In this document: positions 2,623 to 50,488 of the stretch, one piece after another
Position numbering within the stretch: position 1 is the stretch's first letter
How the letters are laid out: every line of letters begins with the position of its first letter
Source of the DNA: an uncultured Bacteroidales bacterium
GTDB lineage: Bacteria > Bacteroidota > Bacteroidia > Bacteroidales > Muribaculaceae
Length of the DNA: 64,000 bases
NCBI GenBank assembly: GCA_947573135.1
Contig: CANPDU010000006.1
Span: 1-64,000 of the forward strand
Direction of reading: 5' to 3'
Notes under the pieces: generated by a model
Told to the model about the DNA's origin: nothing
Database searches by the model: none
Seen by the model: the letters and a program-made list of their open reading frames with translations, nothing else
Translations under genes and position numbers: made by a program

Positions 2623-3662
2623 GCACTCAAAGCGGCATACGCAAACTTTTTGAAAAAAGTTTCAGCGAATCTACCGACTGGACAGACTGGTATTTCAACA
2701 ATGTCTATTCCGACGGCAATGCAATGATTTCCTATGTCAATTCTCAGCCGGCAAGTTGTCTGATGCTTGACAGGTATAAATTCAAAATCGCTTCGCAACA
2801 GGTCGGCATGTCATATATATCATGCTGCGCCACTGCCCCTCAGTTCCGCGGTCATGGCCATATGTCACGGCTCCTTATCGATGCTCTGCTCGAGTCAGCA
2901 GCCGGAGGAGCCGCTTTCGCATCGCTGATCCCGGCTAACCGGCGTCTTTACTTCTATTACGACCGTCTGGGCTTTTCCACTGTGTTTTATAGCGACGAAC
3001 AAAGATACACATCTCTCCATAGTTTCCGGTCAGGCAACGATTATATCGAACTTTCGCCGTCATATGATGCGTTTCACGCTCTCGAATGCGGCCGTACAGC
3101 CACAGTAATTCATTCGGCAACTGATTTTGACAATATTCTTGCCGACAACAGGCTCGACTCGGGCATTGTGATTTACAAAGCAGAAAAAGAGACAAGTAAG
3201 CCCGCAGCCATGCTGTTTGCCACTGTCGGACAACATGCCGCGGTTGTCAGGGATCTTCTGTCCGCGTCGGAAGCAGCTTCTGAGTCAGCTCTCGCCTCGC
3301 TCCGCGAGCGTATCGGCGAACGCATGATCATAGTCCATACACTGCCCGGCGAAAATCCGTTTTACCTCAAATCACACGGCATGGTCCGCATTGTCAACCC
3401 ACTTCCGCTGTTCGAGGCCATCGGCGCCGAACATCCATCGACAGAGCAGGTCATACGATTGCGCGATCCGATCATTCCTGACAACAATGCAGTTTTCATT
3501 ATCCACGGCGGCCATGTCGAACGCTCCAACTCCACTATGCGGCGTATCACACTTGATGTAAACGTCGATATTCTGGCAAAAATAATTTTCAATTCCCGGC
3601 GTGTAGGCGATATTTTCTCCATCCCGTCATTCCGTCCGTCAATGTCGCTGATGCTTGACTGA
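2619..3662 (+). CDS. GNAT-family N-acetyltransferase, possibly Eis-like
   Basis: The 347-residue protein overlaps the NDH-2 gene by 4 bases (ATGA). An acetyl-CoA-binding GNAT core lies at about residues 55-120: a beta strand ending ISCCATAPQFRGHGHMSRLL (Q/R-x-x-G-x-G/H loop), then SLIPANRRLYFYYDRLGF, a typical GNAT motif B. A second, weaker half follows (about 130-345) and contains a run resembling a duplicated acetyltransferase or sterol-carrier-like domain, as in Eis-type proteins. The Eis comparison rests on size and layout only. The substrate cannot be deduced. The overlap with ndh suggests co-expression, but no functional link is visible. After the stop there is a 186-base gap that ends with the glycogen synthase promoter. 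Confidence 0.82.
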   Translation: MSTQSGIRKLFEKSFSESTDWTDWYFNNVYSDGNAMISYVNSQPASCLMLDRYKFKIASQQVGMSYISCCATAPQFRGHGHMSRLLIDALLESAAGGAAFASLIPANRRLYFYYDRLGFSTVFYSDEQRYTSLHSFRSGNDYIELSPSYDAFHALECGRTATVIHSATDFDNILADNRLDSGIVIYKAEKETSKPAAMLFATVGQHAAVVRDLLSASEAASESALASLRERIGERMIIVHTLPGENPFYLKSHGMVRIVNPLPLFEAIGAEHPSTEQVIRLRDPIIPDNNAVFIIHGGHVERSNSTMRRITLDVNVDILAKIIFNSRRVGDIFSIPSFRPSMSLMLD

Positions 3663-3789
3663 GCGATCACGCAAAGATGCACCGTTTCGTATGACAAGCC
3701 GCGAATTTCATTTCGTGCTTCGCTTCGTTTCGCAATTTAAGTTTTACAAAGTTTTTAGTCTTTTCATAATTATACAGACCCCTAACCGC

Positions 3790-3820
3790 TTGAATATTCC
3801 AAAAATAATGACTACCTTTG
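3790..3820 (+). promoter_or_regulatory. Bacteroidota-type promoter for the glycogen operon
   Basis: TTG at 3790-3792 (-33 element), a 20-base spacer and TACCTTTG at 3813-3820 (-7 element) match the Bacteroidota housekeeping form. The expected start is near 3826, which leaves a leader of about 23 bases before the ATG at 3849. Confidence 0.7.
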
Positions 3821-3848
3821 CACTTTGTAATAGCCGAATTTGATTTGT

Positions 3849-5522
3849 ATGGATAATTGCATATCGGAGTTTGACCTGCTTTTAGAGACAAGCTGGGAAG
3901 TCTGTAACAAAATAGGTGGCATATACACCGTCCTTTCCACAAAAGCAGCGACGCTCCAAAAAAATTACAAAGATAAGACAATCTTCATTGGACCTGACGT
4001 ATGGTCAGACGATAACCCTTCGCCATATTTCATCGAAAGCCGAACGCTTTTAAAAAAATGGGTACTCGAAGCCGAGTTGCCCGAAGGCGTGGACGTTCGT
4101 GTCGGGCGATGGGACATCCCCGGCAAACCTATCGTCGTTCTTGTTAAATTCGCCGGCATGTATGCCGTCAAAGACCGGTTCTACGGCCGCATGTGGCAAC
4201 TTTACGGTGTAGATTCACTCCATGCCTACGGAGACTACGACGAGGCCTGCGCTTTCGCTCACGCCGCCGGCATTGTAGCCAAAAGCATTTTCGAATATTA
4301 CCGAAGCCACAATCTTGTAGCCGATCCCGCTAATCCGCGCTTCATCAGCCATTACGACGAATGGACTACCGGCATGGGGCTGCTTTACATCAAGGCCGAA
4401 TATCCCGAAGCCGCTACAATTTTCACCACTCACGCCACAAGCATCGGACGAAGCATATGCGGCAACGGCAAACCCCTCTACGATCAACTGCCCAACTATA
4501 ACGGCGACCAGATGGCCCGCGAACTCAACATGGAGTCAAAACATTCGCTCGAAAAAGCCGCTGCCAATCAGGCCGACTGCTTCACAACGGTCAGCGAAGT
4601 CACAGCCCGCGAATGCGCCCGGTTGCTTGGCCGCCGCCCCGACATCGTGACACCCAACGGTTTTGAAAACAATTTCGTTCCGGCCGCAGCCAAATTTGCT
4701 GCCGCCAGAAATGCCGCGCGTGACAGGATGCTCTCAGTCGCTTCGGCTCTGACCGGACGCAAATTCGGCGACGACACATTCATCGTAGTCACCTCAGGCC
4801 GCTGCGAATACCGCAACAAGGGCATCGATCTTTTCCTCGACTCCATTAACAAACTGGCTTCATATCATCCGGCACGTCCGGTGCTGGCCTTTGTCATGGT
4901 TCCGGCATGGGTCGACAAATTCCGTCCCGATTTATTTTCCGCTCTTACGGATGTAACCGTGTCGCGTCTTGCCGATCCCGTCATAACCCATACCCTGCAT
5001 AATTTTAACTCCGACCCGATAATTAACCGTATCCACCAGCTCGGCTTTTCCAACGACGACGCTGCAAGAGTATCGGTAATTTACGTTCCATGCTATCTCA
5101 ACGGCGCCGACGGCATATTCGATATGACTTATTACCAATTGCTTCCCGGCTTCGACGCATCTGTGTTCCCCTCTTATTACGAACCGTGGGGCTATACGCC
5201 GCTTGAAAGCGTTGCATTCGGGGTCCCGACTGTAACGACATCTCTGTCGGGCTTCGGACAATGGATACTCGACAGCTTCGACGACACTTTCACCGCTTGC
5301 GGGGTTCGCGTCGAGCAGCGCACCGACAGCAACTACGATCATGTACGTGATAATATCGCCGACGACGTTCTGTCACTGGTAAACTCAACGGATCATGAAA
5401 TAAAGATCATATCCAAAGCAGCCAGAGCGACCGCAAAGGCGGCGGCATGGAGCAACTTCATAAGCTTTTACATCAAAGCCTTCAGCATTGCCTTGGACAA
5501 TGCCCGGGCAAGAAACAAATAA
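3849..5522 (+). CDS. glycogen synthase, GT3 (eukaryote-like) family
   Basis: The protein (557 residues from the ATG at 3849; an in-frame TTG lies at 3840) starts [23 protein letters not shown]. This is the UDP-glucose-type glycogen synthase signature of GT3 enzymes from fungi and animals, rather than the KTGGLADV of bacterial GlgA (GT5). Near the C-terminus [19 protein letters not shown] followed by TTSLSGFG gives the GT3 nucleotide-sugar site, including the E-x7-E pair. It would extend alpha-1,4-glucan in the cytoplasm. It is shorter than eukaryotic synthases (about 700 residues) and lacks their phosphorylated tails, as is usual for bacterial GT3 members. It is followed after 29 bases by the glucan phosphorylase gene, so synthesis and breakdown of glycogen are co-transcribed. 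Confidence 0.93.
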
Positions 5523-5551
5523 AGAATTACAACACTCTAATTTATTATATT

Positions 5552-8110
5552 ATGAAACTACCGGTAAGCAACACCAACGCCCCCGTATGGCGTGACGTTA
5601 CTGTCAAATCCGAACTTCCCTCCAAACTCAAGGCCCTCGATGAGCTTGCTAAAAACTTATGGTGGGTATGGAACAGCGAGGCAAAGGCCCTGTTCCGCGA
5701 TCTTAATCCCGATCTATGGCGCTCGACCGGCGAAAACCCTGTAATGCTGCTTCAGCAGCTCAGTTTCGAGCGCATCAAAGAAGTCATGGCCTCTGAAGAG
5801 ATGATGAGCCGCATTGCTCACGTATATGCCGACTTCAAAGAATACATGAAGAAACCGATGCGCAAAGACGTTCCTTCGGTTTCTTACTTCTCGATGGAAT
5901 ACGGTCTGTGCAACTGCCTCAAGATCTACTCCGGCGGTCTCGGCGTCCTCGCAGGCGACTATATCAAGGAAGCATCCGACAGCTGTGTCGACATGACGGC
6001 CGTAGGTTTCCTCTATCGTTTCGGTTATTTCACCCAGACTCTAAGCGTCGACGGTCAGCAGATCGCCAATTATGAGGCTCAGAACTTCAACCAGCTCCCC
6101 ATCGAGCAGGTGCTCGACAACAACGGACAGCCGATGATCCTCGAGGTGCCCTACCCCGGACGCATCATCTACAGCCACATATGGCGTGTCAACGTCGGCC
6201 GCATGAAACTCTATCTCCTCGACACCGATTTCGACATGAACAGCGAGTTCGACCGCTCGATCACCCACCAGCTCTATGGCGGCGACTGGGAGAACCGCAT
6301 CAAGCAGGAATATCTTCTCGGTATCGGCGGCGTGCTGATGCTCAAGAAACTCGGCATCCGCAGCCAGCTCTATCACTGCAACGAAGGTCACGCAGCCCTG
6401 CTCAATCTCCAGCGCCTCGTCGATTATATCCACGAAGACGGGCTTGATTTCAACACCGCCCTCGAAATAGTCCGCGCATCGTCGCTTTACACCGTCCACA
6501 CTCCGGTGCCCGCAGGTCACGACTACTTCGACGAAGGACTCTTCGGAAAATACATGGGCGAATATCCCGCAAAACTCGGCATATCGTGGAACGACCTCAT
6601 GAACATGGGACGCGAAAACCCCAACACCAACGAACGCTTCTCCATGAGCGTATTCGCGCTCAACACCTGTCAGGAAGCCAACGGTGTAAGCTGGCTTCAC
6701 GGCGAGGTTTCGAAGAAAATGTTCGCCGGCATCTGGAAAGGCTACTCCTGGGAAGAAAGCCATGTTGGCTATGTCACCAACGGCGTCCATATGCCGACCT
6801 GGGCTGCAAGCGAATGGAAAGAATTCTACTGGAACCGTCTCGGCTCTCAGGTATTCACCGACTCAAGCAACCCCGAAGCATGGAAGGGTATCTTCGATGT
6901 CGCCGACGAAGATATCTGGGCGATGCGCTGTCAGCTCAAAGAAAAATTCGTCAACTTTGTCAAACGCGACTTCAAAGCCAAATGGCTTGCCAATCAGGGC
7001 GATCCCTCGGCTGTGGTCAAAGTTCTTGACAAGATCAACCCCAACGCTCTTATCATCGGTTTTGCCCGTCGTTTCGCAACTTATAAGCGCGCTCATCTCC
7101 TCTTCACCGACCTCGACCGTCTCGCCAAGATTGTCAACAACGAGCAATTCCCTGTCCAGTTCGTGTTCTCAGGTAAGGCTCACCCCGCCGACGGCGCCGG
7201 CCAGGGCCTGATCAAACGCATCATGGAGATCTCGCATATGCCTCAGTTCGAGGGCAAGATCATCTTCCTTGAAGACTACAACATGATCGTGGCCAAGCGT
7301 CTCGTGACAGGTGTCGACATCTGGCTCAACACTCCGACACGCCCCCTCGAGGCATCAGGTACATCGGGCGAAAAAGCCGAAATGAACGGAGTCCTCAACT
7401 TCTCTGTCCTCGACGGATGGTGGTATGAAGGCTACCGCTTCAACGAAAAAGCAGGCTGGGCTCTCACCGACAAACGCACCTATACCGATCAGGCTCAGCA
7501 GGACAAACTCGATGCGGCCACGATCTACTCTATGCTCGAAAACGAGATCATCCCGCTCTATTTTGCCAAGAACTCCAAGGGCTACTCTCCCGAATGGATA
7601 CAGTATATCAAGCGTTCGATCGGCGACATCGCGCCCCACTTCACCATGAAGCGTATGATCGACGACTATATCGCACGTTTCTACGATCCTGAAGCTGCAC
7701 GCTCAAAGAAACTCGCAGCAAAAAACTTCGCTCTCGCCAAAGAAATCGTTGCCTGGAAAGAGAAAGTAGCTGCTGACTGGGACGGCATCAAAGTGTTTGA
7801 CATCCGTCATTCAGGCGAGATTTCAAACTCTACCACCGGCCGGAATGTGCGCATCGAAGCCATCATCGACACTAACGGCCTCGGCAAGGATCTCCACCTC
7901 GAACTCGTCATCCATCGCGTTGAGAACGGTGAAGAGCATTTCGTCGGTACTCAGCAGTTCAAGGTTGTCAAAGAGGAAGGCAACGTTCTAACCTACGAAC
8001 TCACTACCGAGACCAAAGATCCGGGTGTGTTCCGCATCGGTTACCGTATCTATCCTTACAATCCAGCTCTGCCTCACCGTCAGGACTTCGCGTTCACCCG
8101 CTGGATCTGA
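5552..8110 (+). CDS. glgP: alpha-glucan phosphorylase, GT35 family (short type)
   Basis: The ATG at 5552 gives 852 residues starting [16 protein letters not shown]. The same frame is open further upstream into the synthase gene, but that part is not conserved-looking. An N-terminal DUF3417 segment ([17 protein letters not shown], about 30-46) marks the short bacterial/archaeal alpha-glucan phosphorylase type. Then come the [20 protein letters not shown] and HCNEGHAAL motifs, and the pyridoxal-phosphate region [14 protein letters not shown] followed by [10 protein letters not shown] (about 590-625). The lysine in GEKAEMNG is the expected cofactor-binding residue. The enzyme releases glucose-1-phosphate from glycogen or maltodextrin. 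A C-terminal domain of about 130 residues after the catalytic part resembles a beta-sandwich. The gene ends in a clear terminator. Confidence 0.94.
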
Positions 8111-39532: not shown

Positions 39533-40837
39533 ATGACAACAAACATTCTACTCAGCGCTTCATCGGTCACTTCGCTGACCCTTATAGCCGGCGTCGGCAT
39601 CTTCCTGCTGATCACGCTCCTGTTGGTGATCATACTCCTCATCGCTAAAAAATGCCTCGTCAACTCCGGAGCCGTAAATATCAATATCAACAATGACAAG
39701 AATGTCGAAGCCGAGTCAGGCAAAAGTCTGCTCTCGACCTTAGCCGATCAGAATATCTTCCTGCCGTCGGCATGCGGCGGCAAGGGCAGCTGCGGACAGT
39801 GCAAGGTCCGTGTGCTCGAAGGCGGCGGCGAAATCCTGCCTACCGAGGCTGTCCATTTCACCCGGCGCGAGATACGCGAAGGCTGGCGCCTCGGCTGTCA
39901 GCTCAAGGTCAAGGACGATCTTAAGATCGACGTTCCCGCTTCGGTTCTCGACGTCAAGGAATGGGAATGCGAAGTTATCTCCAACCGCAACGTCGCAACA
40001 TTTATCAAGGAATTCATCGTAAAACTCCCCGAGGGCGAGCACATGAACTTCCTGCCCGGATCCTATGCCCAGATCAAAATTCCGCCATTCATGATGGACT
40101 ATGCCACTGACATCGACCGCGAGCTTATCGGCAAGGAATATCTGCCGGCATGGGAAAAATTCGGTCTCTTCGGTCTGCATTGCAAGAACGACGACACTAC
40201 TATCCGCGCCTACTCGATGGCCAACTATCCGGCCGAAGGCGACCGCATCATGCTGACCGTCCGCATCGCCACTCCTCCCTTCAAGCCGAAACCAGCCGTC
40301 GGATTCATGGACGTCAACCCGGGCATAGCGTCGAGCTACATTTTCACCCTCAAGCCAGGCGACAAAGTTATGATGAGCGGTCCCTACGGCGACTTCCACG
40401 TCAACACCGAGTCAAAGGCCGAAATGATGTGGATCGGAGGTGGCGCCGGCATGGCACCCCTGCGCTCTCAGATCATGTACATGACCAAGACGCTCAGATG
40501 CACCGACCGCGTAATGAATTACTTCTACGGCGCCCGTGCGCTCAACGAAGTGTTCTATCTCGACGACTTCCTCGCTCTCGAAAAAGAATTCCCCAACTTC
40601 AAGTTCCATCTTGCGCTCGACCGTCCCGATCCTGTCGCCGATGAAATCGGAGTTGCCTATACCCCGGGCTTCGTCCATCAGGTGATCTACGACACCTATC
40701 TCAAAGATCATCCCAATCCCGAGGATATCGAATACTATATGTGCGGACCCGGCCCGATGAGCAACGCCGTCAACGGCATGCTCGACAGCCTCGGAGTAGA
40801 ACCGTCGTCGATCCACTACGACAACTTCGGCGGCTGA
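39533..40837 (+). CDS. nqrF: Na+-translocating NADH:quinone reductase subunit F
   Basis: 434 residues. One N-terminal helix ([20 protein letters not shown]), a 2Fe-2S ferredoxin domain with cysteines C81, C87, C90 and C122 ([20 protein letters not shown], then LGCQLKV), an FAD domain ([20 protein letters not shown], followed by GIASSYIF) and an NADH domain ([20 protein letters not shown], then [26 protein letters not shown] and the C-terminal YDNFGG). It is the NADH-oxidising entry subunit of the complex. The operon ends here with a hairpin about 45 bases downstream. Confidence 0.97.
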
Positions 40838-40881
40838 TCCCCGCCCCCGCATAACAGACACTAACATATCACACATTCGCT

Positions 40882-40910
40882 GCAGGCGACCTCTTATCGA
40901 GGCCGCCTGC
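40882..40910 (+). terminator. probable terminator of the nqr operon
   Basis: GCAGGCGACCTC (40882-40893) pairs with GAGGCCGCCTGC (40899-40910) with one mismatch and a 5-base loop. The tract after it is AT-rich but not a pure T-run. Confidence 0.6.
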
Positions 40911-41005
40911 ATTATTATATAATTTAAGCATCTTTAACGATTGGGGGGGGTAATTTGTTAAGTTTTGTGTAAATTTGTGCCTATAAACCTTATAATCATA
41001 GACAA

Positions 41006-41656
41006 ATGAAACTTGTCAATCAACTATTGCTTGCAGCCTGCTTTATGGTTGCCACGCCTTGCTCTTATGGTCAGCTTACTAAAGAGCAGATCAAAGAACA
41101 TCAGGAACTCTCAAAAATGACTAAAGAGCAGGCCAATAAAAAGGCTTCCAAAGATGCCCGTAACGAGGCCAAACGTCTGAAAAAAGAGGGCTGGAAAGCA
41201 GCTCCCGGCAGTCTGCCCATGGAAAAACAGCTCGATCGTTCATTCGCCATGTTCTATGAACTCGATACTGATTATCAGCAGAAATACTTCACTGAGCAGT
41301 CAATGGCCGTCGGCACTACTTTCAATGCCGCCAAGATGCAGGCATCCGAACTGGCGCGACTGGGACAGATCGGACAGATACAGTCCGAAGCGACGGCGAT
41401 TGTCGACAATTCGGTAGCCAACAATCAGCTGACGGCGGCCGAGGCCGAATCTATCACCAAAAGTATAATGTCGGGCAAAACCCTGTCATCGCAGTCTCTC
41501 GGCCGTATTATTCCCGTGGTCGAGCTTTACCGCGATCTGCCAAACGGCAATAAGGAAGTGATGATCCGAATCTTCTACGACGGCGCCTCGGCACGCGAGA
41601 TCGCCCGCAAGGCCGCCCTCGGTGATCTTAAAGACGAAGCCGGACAGATGAAATAA
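41006..41656 (+). CDS. exported LPP20-like protein of unknown function
   Basis: 216 residues with signal peptide MKLVNQLLLAACFMVATPCSYG. A charged helical segment follows (TKEQIKEHQELSKMTKEQAN and onward, about 24-65), then a compact domain with FNAAKMQASELARLGQIGQI, SVANNQLTAAEAESITKSIM and IIPVVELYRDLPNGNKEVMI, RIFYD. The A-x-x-x-A-x-x-LA helix followed by a strand with N-G-x-x-E-V resembles the LPP20/FlgT N-terminal fold, but I cannot prove membership. It is the first gene of the exported caspase locus and lies 24 bases before the DUF4384 gene. A run of eight G stands at 40943-40950 upstream. Confidence 0.65.
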   Translation: MKLVNQLLLAACFMVATPCSYGQLTKEQIKEHQELSKMTKEQANKKASKDARNEAKRLKKEGWKAAPGSLPMEKQLDRSFAMFYELDTDYQQKYFTEQSMAVGTTFNAAKMQASELARLGQIGQIQSEATAIVDNSVANNQLTAAEAESITKSIMSGKTLSSQSLGRIIPVVELYRDLPNGNKEVMIRIFYDGASAREIARKAALGDLKDEAGQMK

Positions 41657-41680
41657 CCCCATCGGCTACAGATCGGCACT

Positions 41681-42550
41681 ATGACGCAGTCACGGCGAAT
41701 AATATTATCTCTTGTCTTCATCTTTATAGCTGCGTCGCTACTGTCGGCATTATCAGTTGTCAAAGTCAAGGCCGAGTACGTTTATGTAGTGCCTTCCGAC
41801 GAAACTGACCGTCAGGCATCGGCCAAGGCTCTCGAATGCGCCCGTCTGAAAGCTCTTGCCGACGAATTCGGGACTTTTGTGAGCCACAGCACTTCGACCG
41901 TTGCCGCTAATGTCGACGGAGTTTCGGCGGTCTCGATAGCCGGACTCGGATCAAGCGATATTGCCGGAGTGTGGCTTGAGACAATCTACGAGAACGCCGC
42001 CCCCGAGATCGTCGACGGCCGTCTTGTGATCCGTGCCACTGTCCGGGGCAAAGCCCGCGCGAGAGACGTCTCGGCTCCCGAATTCGAGGTGCAGACCATG
42101 CGCTATATGCACGACGGTTCGCTGTCGCCGTCCGACGAGTTCAAGCATCGCGAACGTTTCGACATATCGTTCATCAGTCCGGTCGACGGCTACGTCGCTA
42201 TCTACGCTTCCGACGGCATAAACAATGCCTTCCGCCTGCTGCCCGACGCCTCGGCTAACGTTGCCGAACCGGTGCGTGTGAGCCGTGGTGTCGAATATCA
42301 CTTTTTTGAAAATTCAAATCCTGTCATGACTCTCGATCCGGGCGAGAACAGCGCAATGCTACGCATTTCTGTGATTTTTACCCCTAAGAAAAAAGCCTTC
42401 ACCCTGCCGGTTGACGAGTCGCGGCTATCGAAACAAGGCGATGTCAATGCGTGGCTCGTCTCTCAGGAACGCTACCGGTCATGGCTGTCAAAGATGCTCA
42501 ACGACAGCGCCACTCAGCGCCGCGATCTGTTTGTCTCCATAACTCGCTGA
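41681..42550 (+). CDS. exported DUF4384-domain protein
   Basis: 289 residues with a signal anchor (IILSLVFIFIAASLLSALSV). The N-terminal part (DRQASAKALECARLKALADE, FGTFVSHSTST, then LVIRATVRGKARA) again has the LPP20/FlgT-like layout. The C-terminal part (ERFDISFISPVDGYVAIYAS, AFRLLPDASANV, RVSRGVEYHFF) matches the DUF4384 pattern of a strand, a YxxIY turn and an LLP motif. DUF4384 domains are often fused to or encoded next to caspase-family proteases in bacteria, and a caspase gene lies about 1.2 kb downstream here. It may be a periplasmic partner or adaptor of that protease; this is inference. Confidence 0.75.
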   Translation: MTQSRRIILSLVFIFIAASLLSALSVVKVKAEYVYVVPSDETDRQASAKALECARLKALADEFGTFVSHSTSTVAANVDGVSAVSIAGLGSSDIAGVWLETIYENAAPEIVDGRLVIRATVRGKARARDVSAPEFEVQTMRYMHDGSLSPSDEFKHRERFDISFISPVDGYVAIYASDGINNAFRLLPDASANVAEPVRVSRGVEYHFFENSNPVMTLDPGENSAMLRISVIFTPKKKAFTLPVDESRLSKQGDVNAWLVSQERYRSWLSKMLNDSATQRRDLFVSITR

Positions 42551-42597
42551 AATATCAACAATTCCATTCATTACACATTCAAAGCCAACTCGCCAAT

Positions 42598-43129
42598 ATG
42601 AAAAAAATTATTCTTTTTGCTGTTATCGCAGTCGTTGCCCTACTTTCATCAACCCAGGCCTCTGCCCAAAAAGGCTATCGCGGCTTCGTCGACGTTGAGA
42701 TTGGGTCTTTGTACTGAGACTTTAGATAGTCGAACAGGCTTCGCTGGTGAAATATCGACAATTCATGGTTTTCAAGCAGGGAACTCATTCTTTGGAGCCG
42801 GAATTGGCATTAAGACATTAATAGTCACTGAGATTGAAAATACAGTTTCAATTCCAATGTTTGTACAGTATCGATATGATTACTCCCTTATATCAAACCA
42901 CAGTTTTTACGGAAAAGCCAAAGTTGGTTATGCGGTCATTGAAAATACTATATTCTATGGCGTAGGGTGCGGCATACGCTTTTCTCTGAATAACAATTAT
43001 ATTACAGCATTCAACTTAGGGTTAAATTTATCATTTGAGAAAGCCGGATATAGAGATTATAAAGCGTCATATTGCATAAAAGACAACCTGACAATTATGC
43101 CTGCTCTGACTTTCGGCATTGAATTCTAA
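42598..43129 (+). pseudogene. small outer-membrane barrel gene interrupted by a +1 frameshift
   Basis: The ATG at 42598 opens MKKIILFAVIAVVALLSSTQ, ASAQKGYRGFVDVE, identical to the start of the next gene. A single extra A at 42700 (GAGATTGGG here, GAGTTGGG in the paralogue) shifts the frame into a stop at 42715. Without that base the frame continues as TGFAGEISTIHGFQAGNSFF, GAGIGIKTL, QYRYDYSLISNHSFYGKAKV and ends ALTFGIEF, aligning with the paralogue along its whole length. So either the gene is a recent pseudogene, or expression is restored by a base change or ribosomal frameshifting. The rest of the frame is intact, which argues that the lesion is young. Confidence 0.85.
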
Positions 43130-43160
43130 TTTGATCATTCATCACAAAAATAATTCTTTT

Positions 43161-43697
43161 ATGAAAAAAATCATTCTTTTTGCTGTTATCGCAGTCGTTG
43201 CCCTACTCTCTTCAACCCAGGCCTCTGCCCAAAAAGGCTATCGCGGATTTGTCGATGTCGAGTTGGGTGCCGGAATTGAGACTGACTACTCAGAAAGCGG
43301 TTTCGTGGGTGGAGTATCTACAATCCACGGCTATCAATCCGGTCACTCATTCTTCGGTGCCGGAATTGGAATTAACGCTTTACCAATAACTGATATTAAT
43401 CATACAATTATGGTGCCTGTCTTCGCCCAATATCGATATGACTACTCTCTTGTCTCCAAGCATAGTTTTTACGGCAAAGCACGTCTCGGCTATGTAGTCA
43501 TTGACGGTGGTATTTTTGCCGGAGTTGGAGGAGGCATCCGTTTTTCACTGAATAACAGCCATATAACTGCTGTAAATTTAGGTCTGAACCTTACAATACA
43601 AAATCCGGAATATGAAGATTACTATTATTCAGGTTGGACTGAACATGAGAGATATATAACAATAATCCCCGCTCTGACTTTCGGTATTGAATTTTAG
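43161..43697 (+). CDS. small outer-membrane beta-barrel protein
   Basis: The ATG at 43161 gives 178 residues with signal peptide MKKIILFAVIAVVALLSSTQ-ASA. The mature protein (YRGFVDVELGAGIETDYSES, VSTIHGYQSGHSFFGAGIGI, YRYDYSLVSKHSFYGKARLG, YVVIDGGIFAGVGGGIRFSL) has alternating strands and short turns like an eight-stranded OmpW/OmpA-type barrel, and it ends ALTFGIEF with a terminal phenylalanine. It is the intact copy of a tandem pair. The first 84 bases of the two copies differ at only three positions, while the 3' parts differ much more, suggesting gene conversion or selection on the signal. It sits in the exported caspase locus, 23 bases before the caspase gene. Confidence 0.8.
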   Translation: MKKIILFAVIAVVALLSSTQASAQKGYRGFVDVELGAGIETDYSESGFVGGVSTIHGYQSGHSFFGAGIGINALPITDINHTIMVPVFAQYRYDYSLVSKHSFYGKARLGYVVIDGGIFAGVGGGIRFSLNNSHITAVNLGLNLTIQNPEYEDYYYSGWTEHERYITIIPALTFGIEF

Positions 43698-43720
43698 CAA
43701 TCAATTCACAATATAAAAAC

Positions 43721-45739
43721 ATGATCCTCAGGTTTCTTTCTTTAGTTTTATTGACCGTCGGCACTATAGCGTCGGCTGATGCCCGCGTGAAGTGGAATAA
43801 TCAGAATAATGCGTCCGGCAACGGCGAAACAATCATCAACAGCGGATCGAAAGATGTGCTGAAATCGGCCAAAGCGCTCAAAGATCAGGCAACTATCGAT
43901 GGCGTGACATATTTCAGGATCGACAACAACTATGCTGCCTGTATGGCCGATCCGGAGAAAAAAGACGCTCTGACTCAAGTCACTATTCAGCCCAAAGTGC
44001 TGATCGGAGGCAACAGTCTGGCAGTGACTACAATAGCAAAAGAAGGTTTCGCAAACTGCAAGAAACTGGTTCATGTCATAATTCCTGCAACGATCCGAAC
44101 AGTCGACGAACTGGCCTTCGCCAACAACAAGCATCTGAAAAGTGTCTCCTTTCTGTCAAACAACATCGAGTTTATCAGTTCCGACAGCAAATGGATGAAA
44201 AATCTGGGACCATTTTTCAATTCAAATAAAGTCGAGACCGTCACCTGGGCGACCGCCGACACTCCGATCTGCGCTTTCGATGCCTTTGTCGGCAACAGTT
44301 CGCCCTACGCCAAAATGCTTGAGCGCAACGCTGCCGAGATTGCCCAGAAAGCAGCCAATATCGATCCGTCGGCACAGCGTGCCGCTACTGCCGACCGTCC
44401 GAAGTTTGCCGACTTCGCCGCCGAAAAAGTATCTGACGTCTACAACAAGTGGGTGAAGAAAAAGCCCTATGAGAGTGTCGTACAATACTCAGACGAAGAA
44501 TGCGAGGCCCGCAAGCGCGAGCTTTTCGACAACGCACGCAACGAATATATCAACCTTTACACATCGTCGGAAATAGCCGGTACACTTGCCGAATATGACA
44601 ATGATTATAAGGTGTTCATAATCAATACGGCCGACGGTAACCAGGTCTTCGCTCAGGTGCCTCAGAGCGACAAAACTTTCTTCGAGGACAATTTCGCCGG
44701 TGTGACTATCCGTCCGACATACAATATCGTCAACAACGAGCTGACCATTGTCGACTGCAAGTTTGAGATCGGCGACAAGACATATGTGTCGCCCGAAATT
44801 TTCGACGGCGTTGCCGACGACTTCTCAAGCATCGACTTCGAGGCCCGCAAGATCGACATCGACGATCTTCTCGCTCAGGAAACAGCTCAGAAACAACAGG
44901 CTCAGCAGGCTAAGGCCAACCGCAGCAAGGCTTCGGCAAATCAGTCGCTCGGCGCTGTAAACATGGCGCCGACAACCGGCTACAACAACACCGGCACTTA
45001 TGCCCTGATAATCGGTAACGAGAATTATAAATACAACGATCCTGTCAGCTATGCCATCGCCGATGCGACGACTTTCGCCCGCTACTGCCGCAACACACTG
45101 GGTGTGCCGACAAGCAACATTATCGCCGTGCAGGATGTCACCAAAGGCGAGCTCCGACGCACGATACGCGAAGTGCAGTCGCTCTTCGAAGACGAAGGCG
45201 ACAGCAAGAATCTCATCGTCTATTACGCCGGACACGGCATACCCGACAAAGACAATATCGACTCCTACATCCTTCCCGTCGACGCCTCGGCCAACGATAT
45301 CGAATCGTGCTATTCGCTACAGGAATTCTACAATCAGCTCGGCGAACTGCCGGCCAAATCGGTTGTCGTCTATCTCGATGCCTGTTTCACGGGATCTTCG
45401 CGCAACGGCAGCGCACTGGTCGCTTCACGCGCCGGAGTGTCGTTCGAGCGCTCGCAGGTCGAACCCCGCGGCAACACCGTCGTCTTCGCCGCCACGTCGG
45501 CCGATGAGACCGCCCAGCCGTATGACGAAGCCGGACACGGCATATTCACATATTATCTGCTCGACAAACTGCGCTCGACAAAGGGCAACATCACTCTCGG
45601 CGATCTGTCGCAGTATCTCATTACAAAGGTAAAATCCCAGTCAATCAGCAAAGGCAAGAAACGTCAGGTGCCGTCGATGTTGGTGTCGTCGACTTTCGCC
45701 GGTGACTGGAAGACTCTGCCTGTCAATCTTATGAAATAA
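43721..45739 (+). CDS. exported caspase-family (C14) protease with LRR-like N-terminal region
   Basis: 672 residues with signal peptide MILRFLSLVLLTVGTIASA. Residues about 85-150 (VTTIAKEGFANCKKLVHVII, PATIRTVDELAFANNKHLKS) are LRR_5/BspA-like repeats. A middle region of about 250 residues has no clear family and ends in a Q/A-rich coil (AQETAQKQQAQQAKANRSKA). The C-terminal caspase domain (about 425-660) has YALIIGNENYKYNDPVSYAI, ADATTFARYCRN, LIVYYAGHG with catalytic His505, then VVVYLDACFTGSS with Cys555, and SADETAQPYDEAGHGIFTYY. Both catalytic residues are present. Export of a caspase is unusual compared with cytoplasmic defence caspases. It is followed after 1 base by the transglutaminase-like gene, so the two are translationally linked. 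Confidence 0.92.
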   Translation: MILRFLSLVLLTVGTIASADARVKWNNQNNASGNGETIINSGSKDVLKSAKALKDQATIDGVTYFRIDNNYAACMADPEKKDALTQVTIQPKVLIGGNSLAVTTIAKEGFANCKKLVHVIIPATIRTVDELAFANNKHLKSVSFLSNNIEFISSDSKWMKNLGPFFNSNKVETVTWATADTPICAFDAFVGNSSPYAKMLERNAAEIAQKAANIDPSAQRAATADRPKFADFAAEKVSDVYNKWVKKKPYESVVQYSDEECEARKRELFDNARNEYINLYTSSEIAGTLAEYDNDYKVFIINTADGNQVFAQVPQSDKTFFEDNFAGVTIRPTYNIVNNELTIVDCKFEIGDKTYVSPEIFDGVADDFSSIDFEARKIDIDDLLAQETAQKQQAQQAKANRSKASANQSLGAVNMAPTTGYNNTGTYALIIGNENYKYNDPVSYAIADATTFARYCRNTLGVPTSNIIAVQDVTKGELRRTIREVQSLFEDEGDSKNLIVYYAGHGIPDKDNIDSYILPVDASANDIESCYSLQEFYNQLGELPAKSVVVYLDACFTGSSRNGSALVASRAGVSFERSQVEPRGNTVVFAATSADETAQPYDEAGHGIFTYYLLDKLRSTKGNITLGDLSQYLITKVKSQSISKGKKRQVPSMLVSSTFAGDWKTLPVNLMK

Positions 45740-45740
45740 C

Positions 45741-47342
45741 ATGACAATTTTCCGGTCTTTATCACTTCTCGCAGCCGTAACCGTCTCGGTGATAGCAGCC
45801 TCGGCTCAGGCTCCGCAGGATAGATATAAGGCGTTCAAAGAGAATGCCACTAAAAACTATACCGATTTCCGCAAGGAGGCAAACAAGCGATACGCCGATT
45901 TTATACGCGCAGCGTGGGAAAGCTATGACGTAAACTCGCCCGTCGAGAAACCTGATATCGACTACGTCGTGCCCGAAGTCCGATATGAAGAGGGCGACAG
46001 TGTTGTCATCGTCTCGATGGAAGCACTGAAAGCTTCTGACGAGACCGACGGTCTGCAGGAAAGCGTAGCCGGACTGTTCAACAAGATAAAGCGGGGAGTC
46101 AGGAAAATCACACACCGCGACAACAAAGAGAACCGGCGGCTGGCGGCAACCGTCGTCGACAAGCCCGATGCGGCGCCGGTGCCACAACCGATTGCCCCGG
46201 TCGGCGAGGATGCAGACAACAGCCTCACAATCGACGTCCCTGCAGCACATAGTTTTACATTTTTCGGAACCGAACGCGAAGTGAGGCTGCCGACCGATCA
46301 TGAACTAAACCTTAAAAACCTAAATAACAACACCATCGCAAACGCATGGCTGCGTCTGAGCGAAAAAGATTTCGATCCGCTGCTGAAAGACTGTCTCGAT
46401 CTGCGCAGCTCGATGAATCTCAACGACTGGTGTTACCTTAAAATGCTCGAAGCGCTGAGTCAGTCAATCTACGGCGACAGCAATGAGGGACGCTTGTTCA
46501 CCGCCTACATGTTCTGTCAGTCGGGCTATGCGATGCGCCTGACGCGGACGCCCGACCGCAAGCGCCTCGGCATGATGTTTCCCAGTCAGGACACTCTCTA
46601 CTCACTGTCATATCTGACTGTCGACGGAACGGCCTACTATCTCTTCAACTGCGGCGAAGGAGCTCAGTTCGAGATCGTGCCGCGGGCGTTCGACAACGAG
46701 TCTCGGATACGTCTTCTCTATGCCGACAGCCCGAAACTCGACGTGAAGAAAAGCACGCCGCGCCGCATCAGGTCGATCCATTACCCCGATCTCGACATGG
46801 AAGTCAGTGTCAATGAAAATCTTATCGATTTCTATAATTCCTATCCTGACGGAGTTCTGGGAGGCAACTTCCTGACGCGTTTTGCCTTCCATGCCGACAT
46901 ACCGCTTGACTCATGCGTCAAGGCGAGTCTGTATCCGGCTCTCAGCGAGAAGATCAGGGACATGTCAAAAGTTGAGGCCGCCGGAGCGCTGCTCAACTGG
47001 CTCCAGACCGGCTTTGTCTATGAGTTCGACAACAAAGTATGGGGCGGCGACAGAGTGTTTTTTGCCGAAGAGACCCTTTTCTATCCTTTCTGCGACTGCG
47101 AGGACCGCGCGATACTCTATTCAAAGCTCGTCCGCGATCTCTTGGGGCTTAAAGCCGCACTTGTCTATTACCCCGGTCACCTCGCGGCTGCCGTATGCTT
47201 TGACGACGAACCGGTCAGCGGAGCCTATATCAACATCGACGGCCGCAAATTCGTAATCTGCGATCCTACATACATCGTTGCCGGCGTCGGAACGCAGATG
47301 ACCTGCGTCGACGACACAAAAATCCAGGCTATCGAACTATAA
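45741..47342 (+). CDS. exported transglutaminase-like cysteine enzyme
   Basis: 533 residues with signal peptide (FRSLSLLAAVTVSVIAASA). A helical segment follows (YKAFKENATKNYTDFRKEAN), then a linker rich in P, D and V and a domain around SFTFFGTEREVRLPTDHELN. The C-terminal 120 residues form a transglutaminase-like fold: ALLNWLQTGFVYEFDNKVWG, then YPFCDCEDRAILYSKLVRDL with catalytic C453 (C451 also near), YYPGHLAAAV with His480 and FVICDPTY with Asp508. This Cys-His-Asp set is complete. It could be a protease, an amidase or a crosslinking enzyme in the periplasm or outside. It lies one base after the caspase gene and ends the operon at a hairpin terminator. Confidence 0.85.
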   Translation: MTIFRSLSLLAAVTVSVIAASAQAPQDRYKAFKENATKNYTDFRKEANKRYADFIRAAWESYDVNSPVEKPDIDYVVPEVRYEEGDSVVIVSMEALKASDETDGLQESVAGLFNKIKRGVRKITHRDNKENRRLAATVVDKPDAAPVPQPIAPVGEDADNSLTIDVPAAHSFTFFGTEREVRLPTDHELNLKNLNNNTIANAWLRLSEKDFDPLLKDCLDLRSSMNLNDWCYLKMLEALSQSIYGDSNEGRLFTAYMFCQSGYAMRLTRTPDRKRLGMMFPSQDTLYSLSYLTVDGTAYYLFNCGEGAQFEIVPRAFDNESRIRLLYADSPKLDVKKSTPRRIRSIHYPDLDMEVSVNENLIDFYNSYPDGVLGGNFLTRFAFHADIPLDSCVKASLYPALSEKIRDMSKVEAAGALLNWLQTGFVYEFDNKVWGGDRVFFAEETLFYPFCDCEDRAILYSKLVRDLLGLKAALVYYPGHLAAAVCFDDEPVSGAYINIDGRKFVICDPTYIVAGVGTQMTCVDDTKIQAIEL

Positions 47343-47367
47343 AATCACAAAGAAAGCTGTAAAAGAA

Positions 47368-47403
47368 ATAGCGCCGATTTCCTTGCGAGGTAATCGGCGC
47401 TAT
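47368..47403. terminator. hairpin between convergent transcripts
   Basis: ATAGCGCCGATT (47368-47379) pairs perfectly with AATCGGCGCTAT (47392-47403), a 12-bp stem with a 12-base loop, followed by CTGTTTTGG. It ends the caspase operon and can also serve the minus-strand gene at 47442. Confidence 0.75.
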
Positions 47404-47441
47404 CTGTTTTGGTTCTACAAAAATGCGTGTTATCGCGGATT

Positions 47442-49061
47442 TCAGCGTATTATCATTTTTCTGACATCAGATCCTTGACGGACGACGTAGATACCGGGAG
47501 CAGGATCCTTGACTCGACGACCCTGAACGTCGTAGATCTCGCATTCGGCACTATCATCGGCGATGATGTCTTCGATCAGGCTCGTCGAACCATCGCTCCA
47601 GACAATATCCGATTTATAGGCTGTGCCGTTTGCGACATTTACACTCTGTACACCGATCACACCCAGATCCTCATATATGACTACCGTATGGCGTGTATCT
47701 TTAACCGAGAAATCATAACCGCCGTCGGTGAAACTATAAGGAACGTCGGTCATGTCTGCGCCTAAAAGCTCATACATATCTTTTTTAAACACATATGGGC
47801 TGTCGTCGCCTTTGACAAAGATATTATAGTACATGTCAGCCTTGCTGATCGACTGACCGTTGAGCGCGGTAGTCGGCAGAGTGACGGCAATAACACCGTA
47901 TTCGTCGAAATCGTCATATTCGGAGTAACGTTCGATGACGGGGTTCTGAGGAGCGCTTTCAACAAAAGCATATTCATTGATGACCGGTTTATTGTATGCG
48001 GCCAGAGCATGGAAAGATTCCGTGCCTTCGTTGATGAGCACAGCACCGTCGCTCTTAAGCAAAGTGCCGTCGGTCTTGTAATCGAAAACTAAGTTGTCGG
48101 CGGGACGATAAACGGTATAGCCCCCGTCATAATAGTCCTCGTCTTCGACAAACACACCGACTCCGCCTAACAGATAGCAGAACGAACCGCCTGATACGCC
48201 GAGATACTGGTTGTTGTCAAACGTGACTTTGCCATCGGCAAGTCTGCCGACAGCGTATCCGAAATTATCGGCAAACTTCAGATAGACATCATTGTCATTC
48301 TCCGCCATCCAGACGTTATAGTCGCCTTCAGCCGTAGACATCACTTTCTTTGATGCCACAACGTTGTCAGGCAATGCGAGAGGGGTCGCGGTCATTGGCG
48401 CCACAATTATATTGTTCTCGCCAAACCAGGCCCATGCTTCATCGGCATTTTCCTCACCGTATATATCGTAAGTAAGTCCGAGCATCACGGGGACATCCTC
48501 ATTCTCGCCAAGTTCACCTACAGAAGTAAGTACACCGTCTGCATAGTTGAACAGCAATTCGCTTTCGCCGAACGAAGGGAAATAGTAGCCCTCGTCTTCA
48601 TCATAATCAAGACGGTCGAAATTCATACGGATTGTCTCGCCCTCATATTCCCATGCCTCGGTGGCGGTCTGAGGTAACTTGGCCACATAAGTAGTGCCTT
48701 CCTTATGATCGAGTTTCAGCCAGCAGTCAGTATCATAGACAGCTATAGGATTCTTGACATACAGACAGCCGTCATCACCTTCGACTATCGCCGAGACCCT
48801 GCCTGATACCTGTCGCTGAAAAATCTCAAAGCTACGCGGATAAAGAGCAAAAGCCGAGAGCGTCATATTGTCGATAAGCTTACCGGCGGGAGTCTCGATT
48901 ATACCGTCGACTCCGGGCACGCGTACCGGCGCAGAAGCGCTGAGAGTCCGAGCCTGCAGAGGACAATTCTCAGTCAGGTCAATCTGATGTTTTACAGAAC
49001 TTTCCTGAGCCATTAGAGAGGCAGAAATCAGGAGTGCGGGAAGAAGTAGAAATTTTTTCAT
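47442..49061 (-). CDS. exported protein with sorting-like C-terminal tail, function unknown
   Basis: 539 residues with signal peptide MKKFLLLPALLISASLMAQ. The middle is rich in acidic and aromatic residues with repeated beta-type stretches (DGCLYVKNPIAVYDTDCWLK, YEGETIRMNFDRLDYDEDEG, VWMAENDNDVYLKFADNFGY). The last 60 residues contain CEIYDVQGRRVKDPAPGIYV followed by VRQGSDVRKMIIR, which is the pattern of a type IX secretion sorting domain (G-R-x-V, P-G-x-Y-x-V, K-x-x-x-R end). I do not recognise the main domain. It has its own promoter at 49130-49160. The similar tail on the NAGPA protein at 21457 supports a shared export or anchoring route. Confidence 0.7.
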   Translation of the reverse strand: MKKFLLLPALLISASLMAQESSVKHQIDLTENCPLQARTLSASAPVRVPGVDGIIETPAGKLIDNMTLSAFALYPRSFEIFQRQVSGRVSAIVEGDDGCLYVKNPIAVYDTDCWLKLDHKEGTTYVAKLPQTATEAWEYEGETIRMNFDRLDYDEDEGYYFPSFGESELLFNYADGVLTSVGELGENEDVPVMLGLTYDIYGEENADEAWAWFGENNIIVAPMTATPLALPDNVVASKKVMSTAEGDYNVWMAENDNDVYLKFADNFGYAVGRLADGKVTFDNNQYLGVSGGSFCYLLGGVGVFVEDEDYYDGGYTVYRPADNLVFDYKTDGTLLKSDGAVLINEGTESFHALAAYNKPVINEYAFVESAPQNPVIERYSEYDDFDEYGVIAVTLPTTALNGQSISKADMYYNIFVKGDDSPYVFKKDMYELLGADMTDVPYSFTDGGYDFSVKDTRHTVVIYEDLGVIGVQSVNVANGTAYKSDIVWSDGSTSLIEDIIADDSAECEIYDVQGRRVKDPAPGIYVVRQGSDVRKMIIR

Positions 49062-49280: not shown

Positions 49281-50339
49281 TTAGAAGTTCCATTGGCATG
49301 CGATCATATGCAGGTTGGGGCAAGCTACCGTGCGGAGATCGGTGATCATGTTATAGCGGCAGTTGATATAGGTAAGTGCCTGATCAAACGATACGTCGAG
49401 CATTGTAAGTTCGTTGTTGCTGCAGATAAGACGCTGGAGGAAAGTCTGATTGCTGAGAGTAAGAGTTGTGAGGTCATTGTAAGAGCAATCCACAAACTGG
49501 AGCTGCGGGCAATTGGTGACATTGAAAGTAGTCAGATCATTGTAAGAGCAGACGATATCGAGAAGAGCATTGCAGTCACGCATGCCGAGAGTCTTCATAT
49601 TATTGTCAGAGCAAACAAATGTGGAGAGCGAAGGAAGACCCGAAACGATCAGATTGGAGATCTGGTTGTCGTCGATATTGAGGTTCTGAAGACTTTCGAC
49701 ACCGACAAGGTTGAGAGTGGTAAGCTTGTTATATCCGCAATATAGGTTTTTAAGAGCCTTGCAATTCTCGACATTGAGAGCCTCAAGATGGTTAGACTGG
49801 CAGTTGACAGTCTTCAATGTAGGCGCGAACGAAAGATCGAGAGCAACAAGATAATTTGACGCTATATTGAGGTTCTCCAACGCTGTGACACCACTGAGCT
49901 CGAATTCAGTGATACGGTTATTGTTAGCTGAGACTTTCACAACATTTGTACATCCGGTGAGATTTGCATCGGTGATCTTGTTGCGCGAAATATTAACATC
50001 TGTAAGAGCAACGTCTCCGGCAAATGATACCGAAGTAAGAGCATTACGAGAAACGTCAACACTCATAAGAGCGTCAAAACCGCTGAGATCGAGATCCCCG
50101 GCAATCTTTTTGCCCTTCCAGTCAATTTTGGTCACATGGCCGTTTTCAATGGTCACACCCTCCCACGTAGCGGGAGATTTCACATCGGTAATTTTAAGTG
50201 CCTGAGCATTGGTAGCTTCTTTTTCAGCAGGGGCAGCGAGGAAAGCCTGGAGCTGTTTCAACTCGTTCTTGTCAATTTTCTGTGCGTTAACTGCCAGACT
50301 ACTTAGTGCGACAGCAAACAATAAAGCGACTTTTTTCAT
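49281..50339 (-). CDS. exported leucine-rich-repeat protein
   Basis: The ATG at 50339 gives 352 residues with signal peptide MKKVALLFAVALSSLAVNA; an ATG 9 bases upstream is less likely. From about residue 75 there are around 12 tandem repeats of 20-22 residues with the pattern L-x-x-L-x-C/V-x-x-N-x-L/I-T-x-L (for example LKNLYCGYNKLTTLNLVGVE, LQFVDCSYNDLTTLTLSNQT). Many repeats carry C at the position before the asparagine turn, as in internalin-like and Bacteroidota surface LRR proteins. A helical cap of about 50 residues precedes the repeats. There is no sorting tail, and the protein ends inside or just after the last repeat (MIACQWNF). It probably binds protein ligands in the periplasm or outside. 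Confidence 0.85.
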   Translation of the reverse strand: MKKVALLFAVALSSLAVNAQKIDKNELKQLQAFLAAPAEKEATNAQALKITDVKSPATWEGVTIENGHVTKIDWKGKKIAGDLDLSGFDALMSVDVSRNALTSVSFAGDVALTDVNISRNKITDANLTGCTNVVKVSANNNRITEFELSGVTALENLNIASNYLVALDLSFAPTLKTVNCQSNHLEALNVENCKALKNLYCGYNKLTTLNLVGVESLQNLNIDDNQISNLIVSGLPSLSTFVCSDNNMKTLGMRDCNALLDIVCSYNDLTTFNVTNCPQLQFVDCSYNDLTTLTLSNQTFLQRLICSNNELTMLDVSFDQALTYINCRYNMITDLRTVACPNLHMIACQWNF

Positions 50340-50488
50340 ATCAAACATAAATAATAGTTGTGATTAATTTAATTCTGCATTTTACAACCGCTTTTCGGGC
50401 GATTGTACTATTCTAACATCACAGCTATTAAAAAGGTTTGATAGTGTTCGAAAAAACTTATAAAATTTTCATCACAGCGTATAACTCC

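Follow-up and report, generated by a model that had tools for sequence, protein, structure and literature searches.

A recurrent operon of Bacteroidales that pairs a putatively exported caspase with a transglutaminase-like enzyme and a DUF4384 protein

The window analysed here is a stretch of 64,000 nucleotides from an uncultured Bacteroidales bacterium of the Muribaculaceae (assembly GCA_947573135.1, contig CANPDU010000006.1, positions 1 to 64,000), whose genome of 2.85 Mb in 56 contigs is 99.9% complete. On the plus strand of this contig (C6), at positions 41006-47342, lies an operon of six reading units with spacers of 24, 47, 31, 23 and 1 bases, which encodes a caspase, a transglutaminase-like enzyme (TG), the products of gene 1 (G1) and gene 2 (G2, the DUF4384 protein) and small barrels. 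The gene nqrF (39533-40837) precedes the operon and a convergent gene (47442-49061) follows it. A preliminary description, made from the nucleotide letters, had counted six same-strand genes with gaps of 1 to 47 bases; strand and spacers are confirmed, but because the first barrel gene changes reading frame, the operon consists of five intact genes and one interrupted. The features are as follows.

40881-40911, plus strand: strong hairpin after the nqr operon, a likely transcript end (RNA fold of 40865-40935: -22.1 kcal/mol, z -4.4)
41006-41656, plus strand: G1, 216 amino acids (aa), predicted to be exported, weakly LPP20-like, tends to accompany the TG gene
41681-42550, plus strand: G2, 289 aa, predicted to be exported, DUF4384 protein, tends to accompany the caspase
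42598-43129, plus strand: first small barrel gene, interrupted by one frame change shortly after the leader
43161-43697, plus strand: second small barrel, intact, 178 aa, predicted to be exported
43721-45739, plus strand: caspase with leader, LRR_5 repeat (residues 102-154), middle region and Peptidase_C14 domain (residues 427-655)
45741-47342, plus strand: TG, a likely papain-fold enzyme with leader, helical N-terminal part, Pro-rich linker and C-terminal catalytic region
47368-47403, no strand assigned: strong hairpin separating operon and convergent gene, a likely terminator of both (RNA fold of 47350-47425: -26.1 kcal/mol, z -4.7)

Both hairpins are missing from the output of a terminator scan based on T-runs.

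The window caspase matches PF00656 at residues 427-655 with E 5.4e-22 and 79 bits (cut-off 21.4), which bears out its earlier assignment to the caspase family on the basis of His505 and Cys555. These residues, in GHG and DxC contexts, respectively, are invariant in all seven caspases of the genome (six PF00656 genes exist besides the window's) and are kept in 31 of 32 other caspases, while Asp553, which stands two positions ahead of the catalytic Cys, is conserved without exception (33 of 33). Among solved structures, MALT1 paracaspases (E 8.4e-12) come closest to this genome's caspase domains, followed by metacaspases; in the MALT1 alignment the His and the Asp-x-Cys coincide, and Asp553 matches the Asp two before the MALT1 catalytic Cys. 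The corresponding acidic residue favours Arg/Lys specificity in MALT1 and metacaspases, and Asp553 alone suggests that proteolysis by the window caspase is probably Arg/Lys specific as well. MALT1 is a cytoplasmic signalling protease of animals, and no accessory domains common to it and the window caspase were seen. Residues 102-154 of the window caspase hold a leucine-rich repeat of the BspA type (LRR_5).

In the second enzyme, the proposed set of Cys453, His480 and Asp508 has held up, being invariant in all 27 aligned TG homologues. On its own, the window protein (P0002) is without a match in Pfam or NCBIfam; among 62 homologues, however, Transglut_core (PF01841) is found in 33 at E <= 0.1 (best 2.3e-4) and DUF553 (PF04473) in nine. 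In an order-level scan, TG was detected in 46 of 198 genomes, in 22 of them within frames of 698-918 codons. The long-frame proteins that were read carry an extra C-terminal part that is beta-propeller-like, with SBBP over its cut-off in one of seven and weak in three. At the deeper Bacteroidales loci L236-L247, the TG domain makes up the N-terminal part of proteins of approx. 700-920 aa, with a beta-propeller-like C-terminal part.

Leaders were called by a home-made, unvalidated test that is positive for the five intact window proteins, for all seven caspases of the genome and, in every module family, for 90-96% of the homologues, compared with 239 of 579 flanking open reading frames (41%). 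The earlier attribution of N-terminal export signals to all six proteins thus holds, by this test, for the five intact ones; in the first barrel gene the leader frame stops at 42717. Export by the Sec route is therefore a well-supported prediction, and it would place the unit in the periplasm or at the cell surface. Neighbouring genes at other loci are of envelope type (CHASE2, beta-propellers and outer-membrane barrels). Two labels given to such neighbours were dropped: an "OmpA-like end" for the WD40 protein, since no OmpA family was among the families listed (25 of 44 in one scan), and "FecR-like" for the gene after CHASE2, which has no Pfam match. A CHASE2-FecR biofilm operon of Burkholderia, described in the accessible part of PMC5192318, is therefore only a lead.

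The other products are less readily classified. DUF4384 (PF14326), which had been assigned to the second protein, is not significant in the window G2 alone (E 0.19; 12.3 bits, cut-off 27), but it is matched in 30 of 34 G2 homologues at E <= 0.1 (best 2.8e-8). The suggestion that G1 and G2 are both LPP20/FlgT-like survives as a weak likeness: the G1 profile matches an LPP20-like family profile at 96%, with the leader included in the comparison, whereas direct family matches are nearly lacking (neither LPP20 nor FlgT among the 25 of 32 families listed for 36 G1 homologues, and FlgT_N in one of 34 G2 homologues, E 0.072). Two barrel genes are indeed present, as proposed, although the first is interrupted: it starts with an ATG at 42598, and beyond the stop of the leader frame its body continues in another frame to 43129. 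The two barrels share 57 of their first 60 bases and 33-49 per 60 in later blocks. For the intact barrel, the sole family match is MipA (E 0.0077, below cut-off), and a relative (28% identity, E 4e-11) lies beside a leucine-rich repeat caspase on contig C14. The barrel profile matched only four loci, and the barrels are therefore not a conserved part of the unit.

What is conserved becomes apparent when other loci are considered. A second TG gene is present in the same genome, in an operon on contig C1 that encodes a WD40-propeller protein, a TPR caspase, G2, G1 and TG; the G2 proteins of the two operons are 27% identical (E 8e-19), and the G1 proteins align over 35 residues only (E 0.004). 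Between CHASE2 and the WD40 protein of this operon, a gene (L014:10848-11680) appears to be split over two overlapping frames, by assembly error or real loss. The wider sample comprised 152 distinct TG loci (80 from the window's family and 80 from named genomes, minus ten identical contigs, plus the window and its paralogue), and loci with less than 5 kb of upstream DNA (17 of 80 in the family set, leaving 63, and 14 of 80 in the named-genome set) were set aside when the two sets were counted separately. A caspase lies within 5 kb at 62 of the 152 loci upstream on the same strand, at six downstream and at four on the other strand; together with both G1 and G2 it is found upstream of TG at 53. 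In the family set, an upstream caspase on the same strand is present at 35 of 63 TG loci, where chance alone would give 0.16. The 123 loci whose upstream DNA spans 5 kb or more comprise 55 with a caspase, 22 with G1 only, three with G2 but no caspase and 43 with none of these. The earlier opinion that a working unit is plausible is thus strengthened by the second operon and by recurrence far above chance.

The same holds at the level of genomes. Across 247 genomes of the window's family, TG occurs in 83, a caspase in 125 and G2 in 69, and the preliminary description had named as fatal to the pairing that the two enzyme genes never co-occur; this condition fails, as a caspase is present in 68 of the 83 genomes with TG and in 57 of the 164 others (Fisher p 8e-13, with kinship not corrected). 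The order of caspase before TG is favoured, as the 62 upstream and six downstream cases indicate, although few loci (9 of 152) have the two genes side by side like the window. At least three gene orders recur, including the window-like G1-G2-caspase-TG (21 loci with that start) and types with a WD40 protein and a caspase (28 loci), and the genes that flank the unit include no large shared families. Presence is patchy, with TG in eight of 25 genomes of the genus. At one locus (L149:1-11389), four caspase genes stand in a row before the TG gene, one of which (3647-5704) is without both catalytic residues. A caspase-free TG context (L062:592-7682 and similar loci) consists of a small LPP20-like lipoprotein, an LPP20-like protein of approx. 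640 aa and a PEGA/barrel-like protein of approx. 600 aa, followed by TG.

Places were counted from the listed TG, caspase and G2 hits, leaving out minor TG fragments; genes on one strand no more than 8 kb apart were taken as near. By this count, 40 of the 110 listed TG places in the family have a nearby caspase, and all 40 also have G2. The 91 G2 places divide into 40 with both enzymes, 26 with a caspase and no listed TG (27 before one place with a partial TG was corrected out), seven with TG and no listed caspase, and 17 with neither. From the side of the 150 listed caspases, 41 are accompanied by G2 and TG, 26 by G2 only, 83 by neither and none by TG without G2. Because every listed TG place with a nearby caspase also has G2, the link between caspase and TG runs through the DUF4384 gene. 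G1, in turn, stands upstream of TG with neither caspase nor G2 at 29 of the 152 TG loci, 22 of which have at least 5 kb of upstream DNA. The unit thus looks like two joined units, one of the DUF4384 protein and the caspase and the other of G1 and TG. Distance correlations in 21 window-type loci are highest for G2-caspase (0.59), G1-TG (0.48) and TG-G2 (0.46) and lower for TG-caspase (0.33), G1-G2 (0.23) and G1-caspase (0.14), and the margin by which G2-caspase exceeds TG-caspase has bootstrap support (difference 0.12-0.47).

The caspase position itself is variable. In 33 caspases at TG loci, the region before the C14 domain contains LRR_5 (15), Sel1 (7), TPR_19 (5) or WG (3). Caspase cassettes also exist as orphans: on contig C24 of the same genome, one consists of a 176-aa gene, the caspase P0014 and a 202-aa gene. 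Full-length relatives of P0014 (55-60% identity) occur at L093, L102 and L137; there they lie between G2 and TG and are bracketed by genes related to the two side genes (42-47% and 24-31%). Similarly, the orphan leucine-rich repeat caspase of contig C14, the neighbour of the barrel relative, is 46% identical to the caspase occupying this slot at L145, compared with 32% for the window caspase. Contig C24 (L015:717-8511) also holds a pair of similar kinase-like genes, another small caspase (P0015) that is predicted to be exported and has a C14 match, and genes that by eye resemble FHA and PP2C-type phosphatase genes.

Clustering, leaders, intact catalytic residues, exchangeable repeats and the constant presence of G2 are observations. 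As an explanation, we tentatively favour, with somewhat less than even confidence, an envelope-located proteolytic unit of two enzymes in two sub-units, in which the caspase relays a signal to TG. The first sub-unit would be formed by the caspase, with its exchangeable repeat domain (LRR_5 here), and G2 as regular partner, and the second by TG, as a papain-fold cysteine enzyme, and G1; the Sec route would carry all parts to the periplasm or the surface. The caspase, an Arg/Lys-specific protease if its MALT1- and metacaspase-like site is a guide, would be restrained until the repeat domain meets its cue, and G2 could act as an adaptor that keeps it near TG, as co-occurrence and correlated divergence suggest. 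The active caspase might then cut TG or G1, whereupon TG, as a peptidase, might trim or release an envelope or surface protein. This final step is the weakest, and that one enzyme acts on the other is what we infer.

Several results weigh against this scheme. No caspase, G1 or G2 lies upstream at 54 of the 152 TG loci, so TG can act without the caspase. At order level, three of 20 fetched TG loci (12 of them picked for their long frames) show a caspase match in the stretch, so that the pairing is at its strongest in the window's family and close to it. The G1-TG correlation is not significantly above that of TG and caspase (bootstrap -0.17 to 0.50). As to the fold, PF01841 scored 13.9-18.2 bits, below the cut-off of 23, in the four of ten TG members that matched; a search of PDB sequences with the TG profile gave no match up to E 10; and the same profile compared with 20 PF01841 domains from relatives reached 0.9% probability, for which the ad hoc alignment may be at fault. 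Since the scores are below cut-off and our own profile comparison failed, a papain-like or transglutaminase-like fold is graded as likely and not higher.

It is quite possible, if not our first choice, that the caspase/DUF4384 pair and the G1/TG pair perform separate envelope jobs and are merely co-transcribed for the same condition, with no relay. Each pair indeed occurs alone, as the 26 DUF4384-caspase places without listed TG and the 29 TG loci with G1 only demonstrate, and in window-type loci the divergence of TG and caspase is weakly correlated. However, the four parts recur in at least three gene orders, and divergence is concerted at the 28 WD40-type loci, with r 0.80-0.94 for all pairs of the four proteins.

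The two-enzyme unit could be given a wider role, as an extracytoplasmic caspase surveillance system of Bacteroidales in which G1, the DUF4384 protein and a TG-like peptidase form a constant frame and caspase cassettes that differ in their recognition repeats are swapped, so that envelope breach or foreign contact beyond the inner membrane would lead to two-step proteolysis and orphan cassettes may feed the frame; we consider this extension rather doubtful. A related and unlikely alternative is conflict or surveillance in which the repeats, on the outer side of the inner membrane, sense a cue from phage, rival or host, whereupon both proteases damage or reshape the envelope. The variety of repeats in swappable cassettes and the patchy presence, in the genus as well as behind nqrF, are consistent with it, and the available part of Kaur et al. 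2020 (PMC7159879) describes caspases and, rarely, TG-like thiol peptidases as effectors of VMAP-type ternary conflict systems. There, however, a cytoplasmic protein carries one or the other as a domain, whereas here both enzymes occur together with leaders and no NTPase partners were seen. Patchiness is also common to accessory envelope functions, and no immunity-type gene turned up, although none was specifically sought. When the six proteins were scanned against PADLOC-DB, the window caspase matched the generic caspase model PDLC02987 (E 4.7e-13), which it shares with anti-phage caspase systems; apart from one chance-level match of G2, there was no other match, no defence partner model was significant, and unlike those systems the caspase here has a leader.

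Crosslinking of envelope proteins by TG as a true transglutaminase, with the caspase trimming or activating it, was among the roles first considered and now seems improbable. The family match in 33 of 62 homologues and the intact Cys-His-Asp set would allow it, but no result favours crosslinking over peptidase action. The DCED-type motif of TG is reminiscent of LapG-type peptidases, whose family PF06035 is, however, unmatched in P0002. LapG is an exported papain-fold cysteine protease near envelope regulators, and TG may work in a similar manner, although no c-di-GMP receptor or LapA-type adhesin was identified in the loci. The same analogy extends to the periplasmic adhesin protease DvhG (PMC13090378, in the portion accessible), and according to the accessible text of PMC10318531 the fold serves peptidases, amidases and acyltransferases alike. 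From PF01841 and PF04473 members, with which it shares the Cys-His-Asp order, TG differs by its scores below the curated cut-off, its extra N-terminal region and the beta-propeller extensions of deeper relatives. That there is no unit at all, only chance neighbours or unused leaders, is very improbable, since the interrupted first barrel and the unconserved barrels that might suggest it are set against leaders in nearly all homologues and a recurrence that largely refutes it.

Most work on bacterial caspases treats them as proteases of defence or stress in the cytoplasm. Within this context, the preliminary description had contrasted an exported unit with cytoplasmic caspase systems, and the window caspase does carry a leader; exported bacterial caspases are not new, however, as a location outside the cell was inferred as early as 2012 (PMC3501461, seen in part). 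The accessible text of that paper mentions extracellular bacterial caspases and multi-caspase operons of Bacteroidetes, as well as caspases joined to repeat domains, and does not mention transglutaminase or DUF4384. The window caspase resembles such prokaryotic homologues (orthocaspases or bacterial metacaspases, PF00656) in its C14 match over cut-off and its His-Cys dyad. In 23 cyanobacterial orthocaspases DUF4384 forms an accessory domain (PMC8283722, available part), whereas here it is a separate protein predicted to be exported, alongside a caspase that bears a leader and an added TG-like enzyme. Such an operon was not found described in the open-licence literature searched; bacterial caspases, extracellular ones and DUF4384 orthocaspases are known, and it is the recurrent combination of putatively exported caspase, TG and DUF4384 protein that appears new in detail. 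DUF4384 thereby gains a testable role as caspase adaptor, the so far nameless TG-like family gains a genomic context, and exchangeable sensor-caspase cassettes are documented in gut Bacteroidales. If the relay is true, it would amount to a proteolytic cascade outside the inner membrane.

Some observations concern the surroundings of the operon. A poly-G tract of eight bases (40943-40950), which lies ahead of the operon, was considered as a phase-variation switch and rejected, as 31 of 100 shuffles match or exceed the 7-G match count of the window. Behind the operon, on the opposite strand, a leucine-rich repeat protein is encoded at 49281-50348 (LRR_4, E 5.1e-21). The DNA 3' of nqrF (39533-41006) is variable: the genes that follow it in the window were found in none of 20 congeners (fetched stretches of 1.5-11.8 kb, several of them short). 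This difference holds even in congeners with 89-92% nqrF identity, and one congener has a 28% relative of the barrel.

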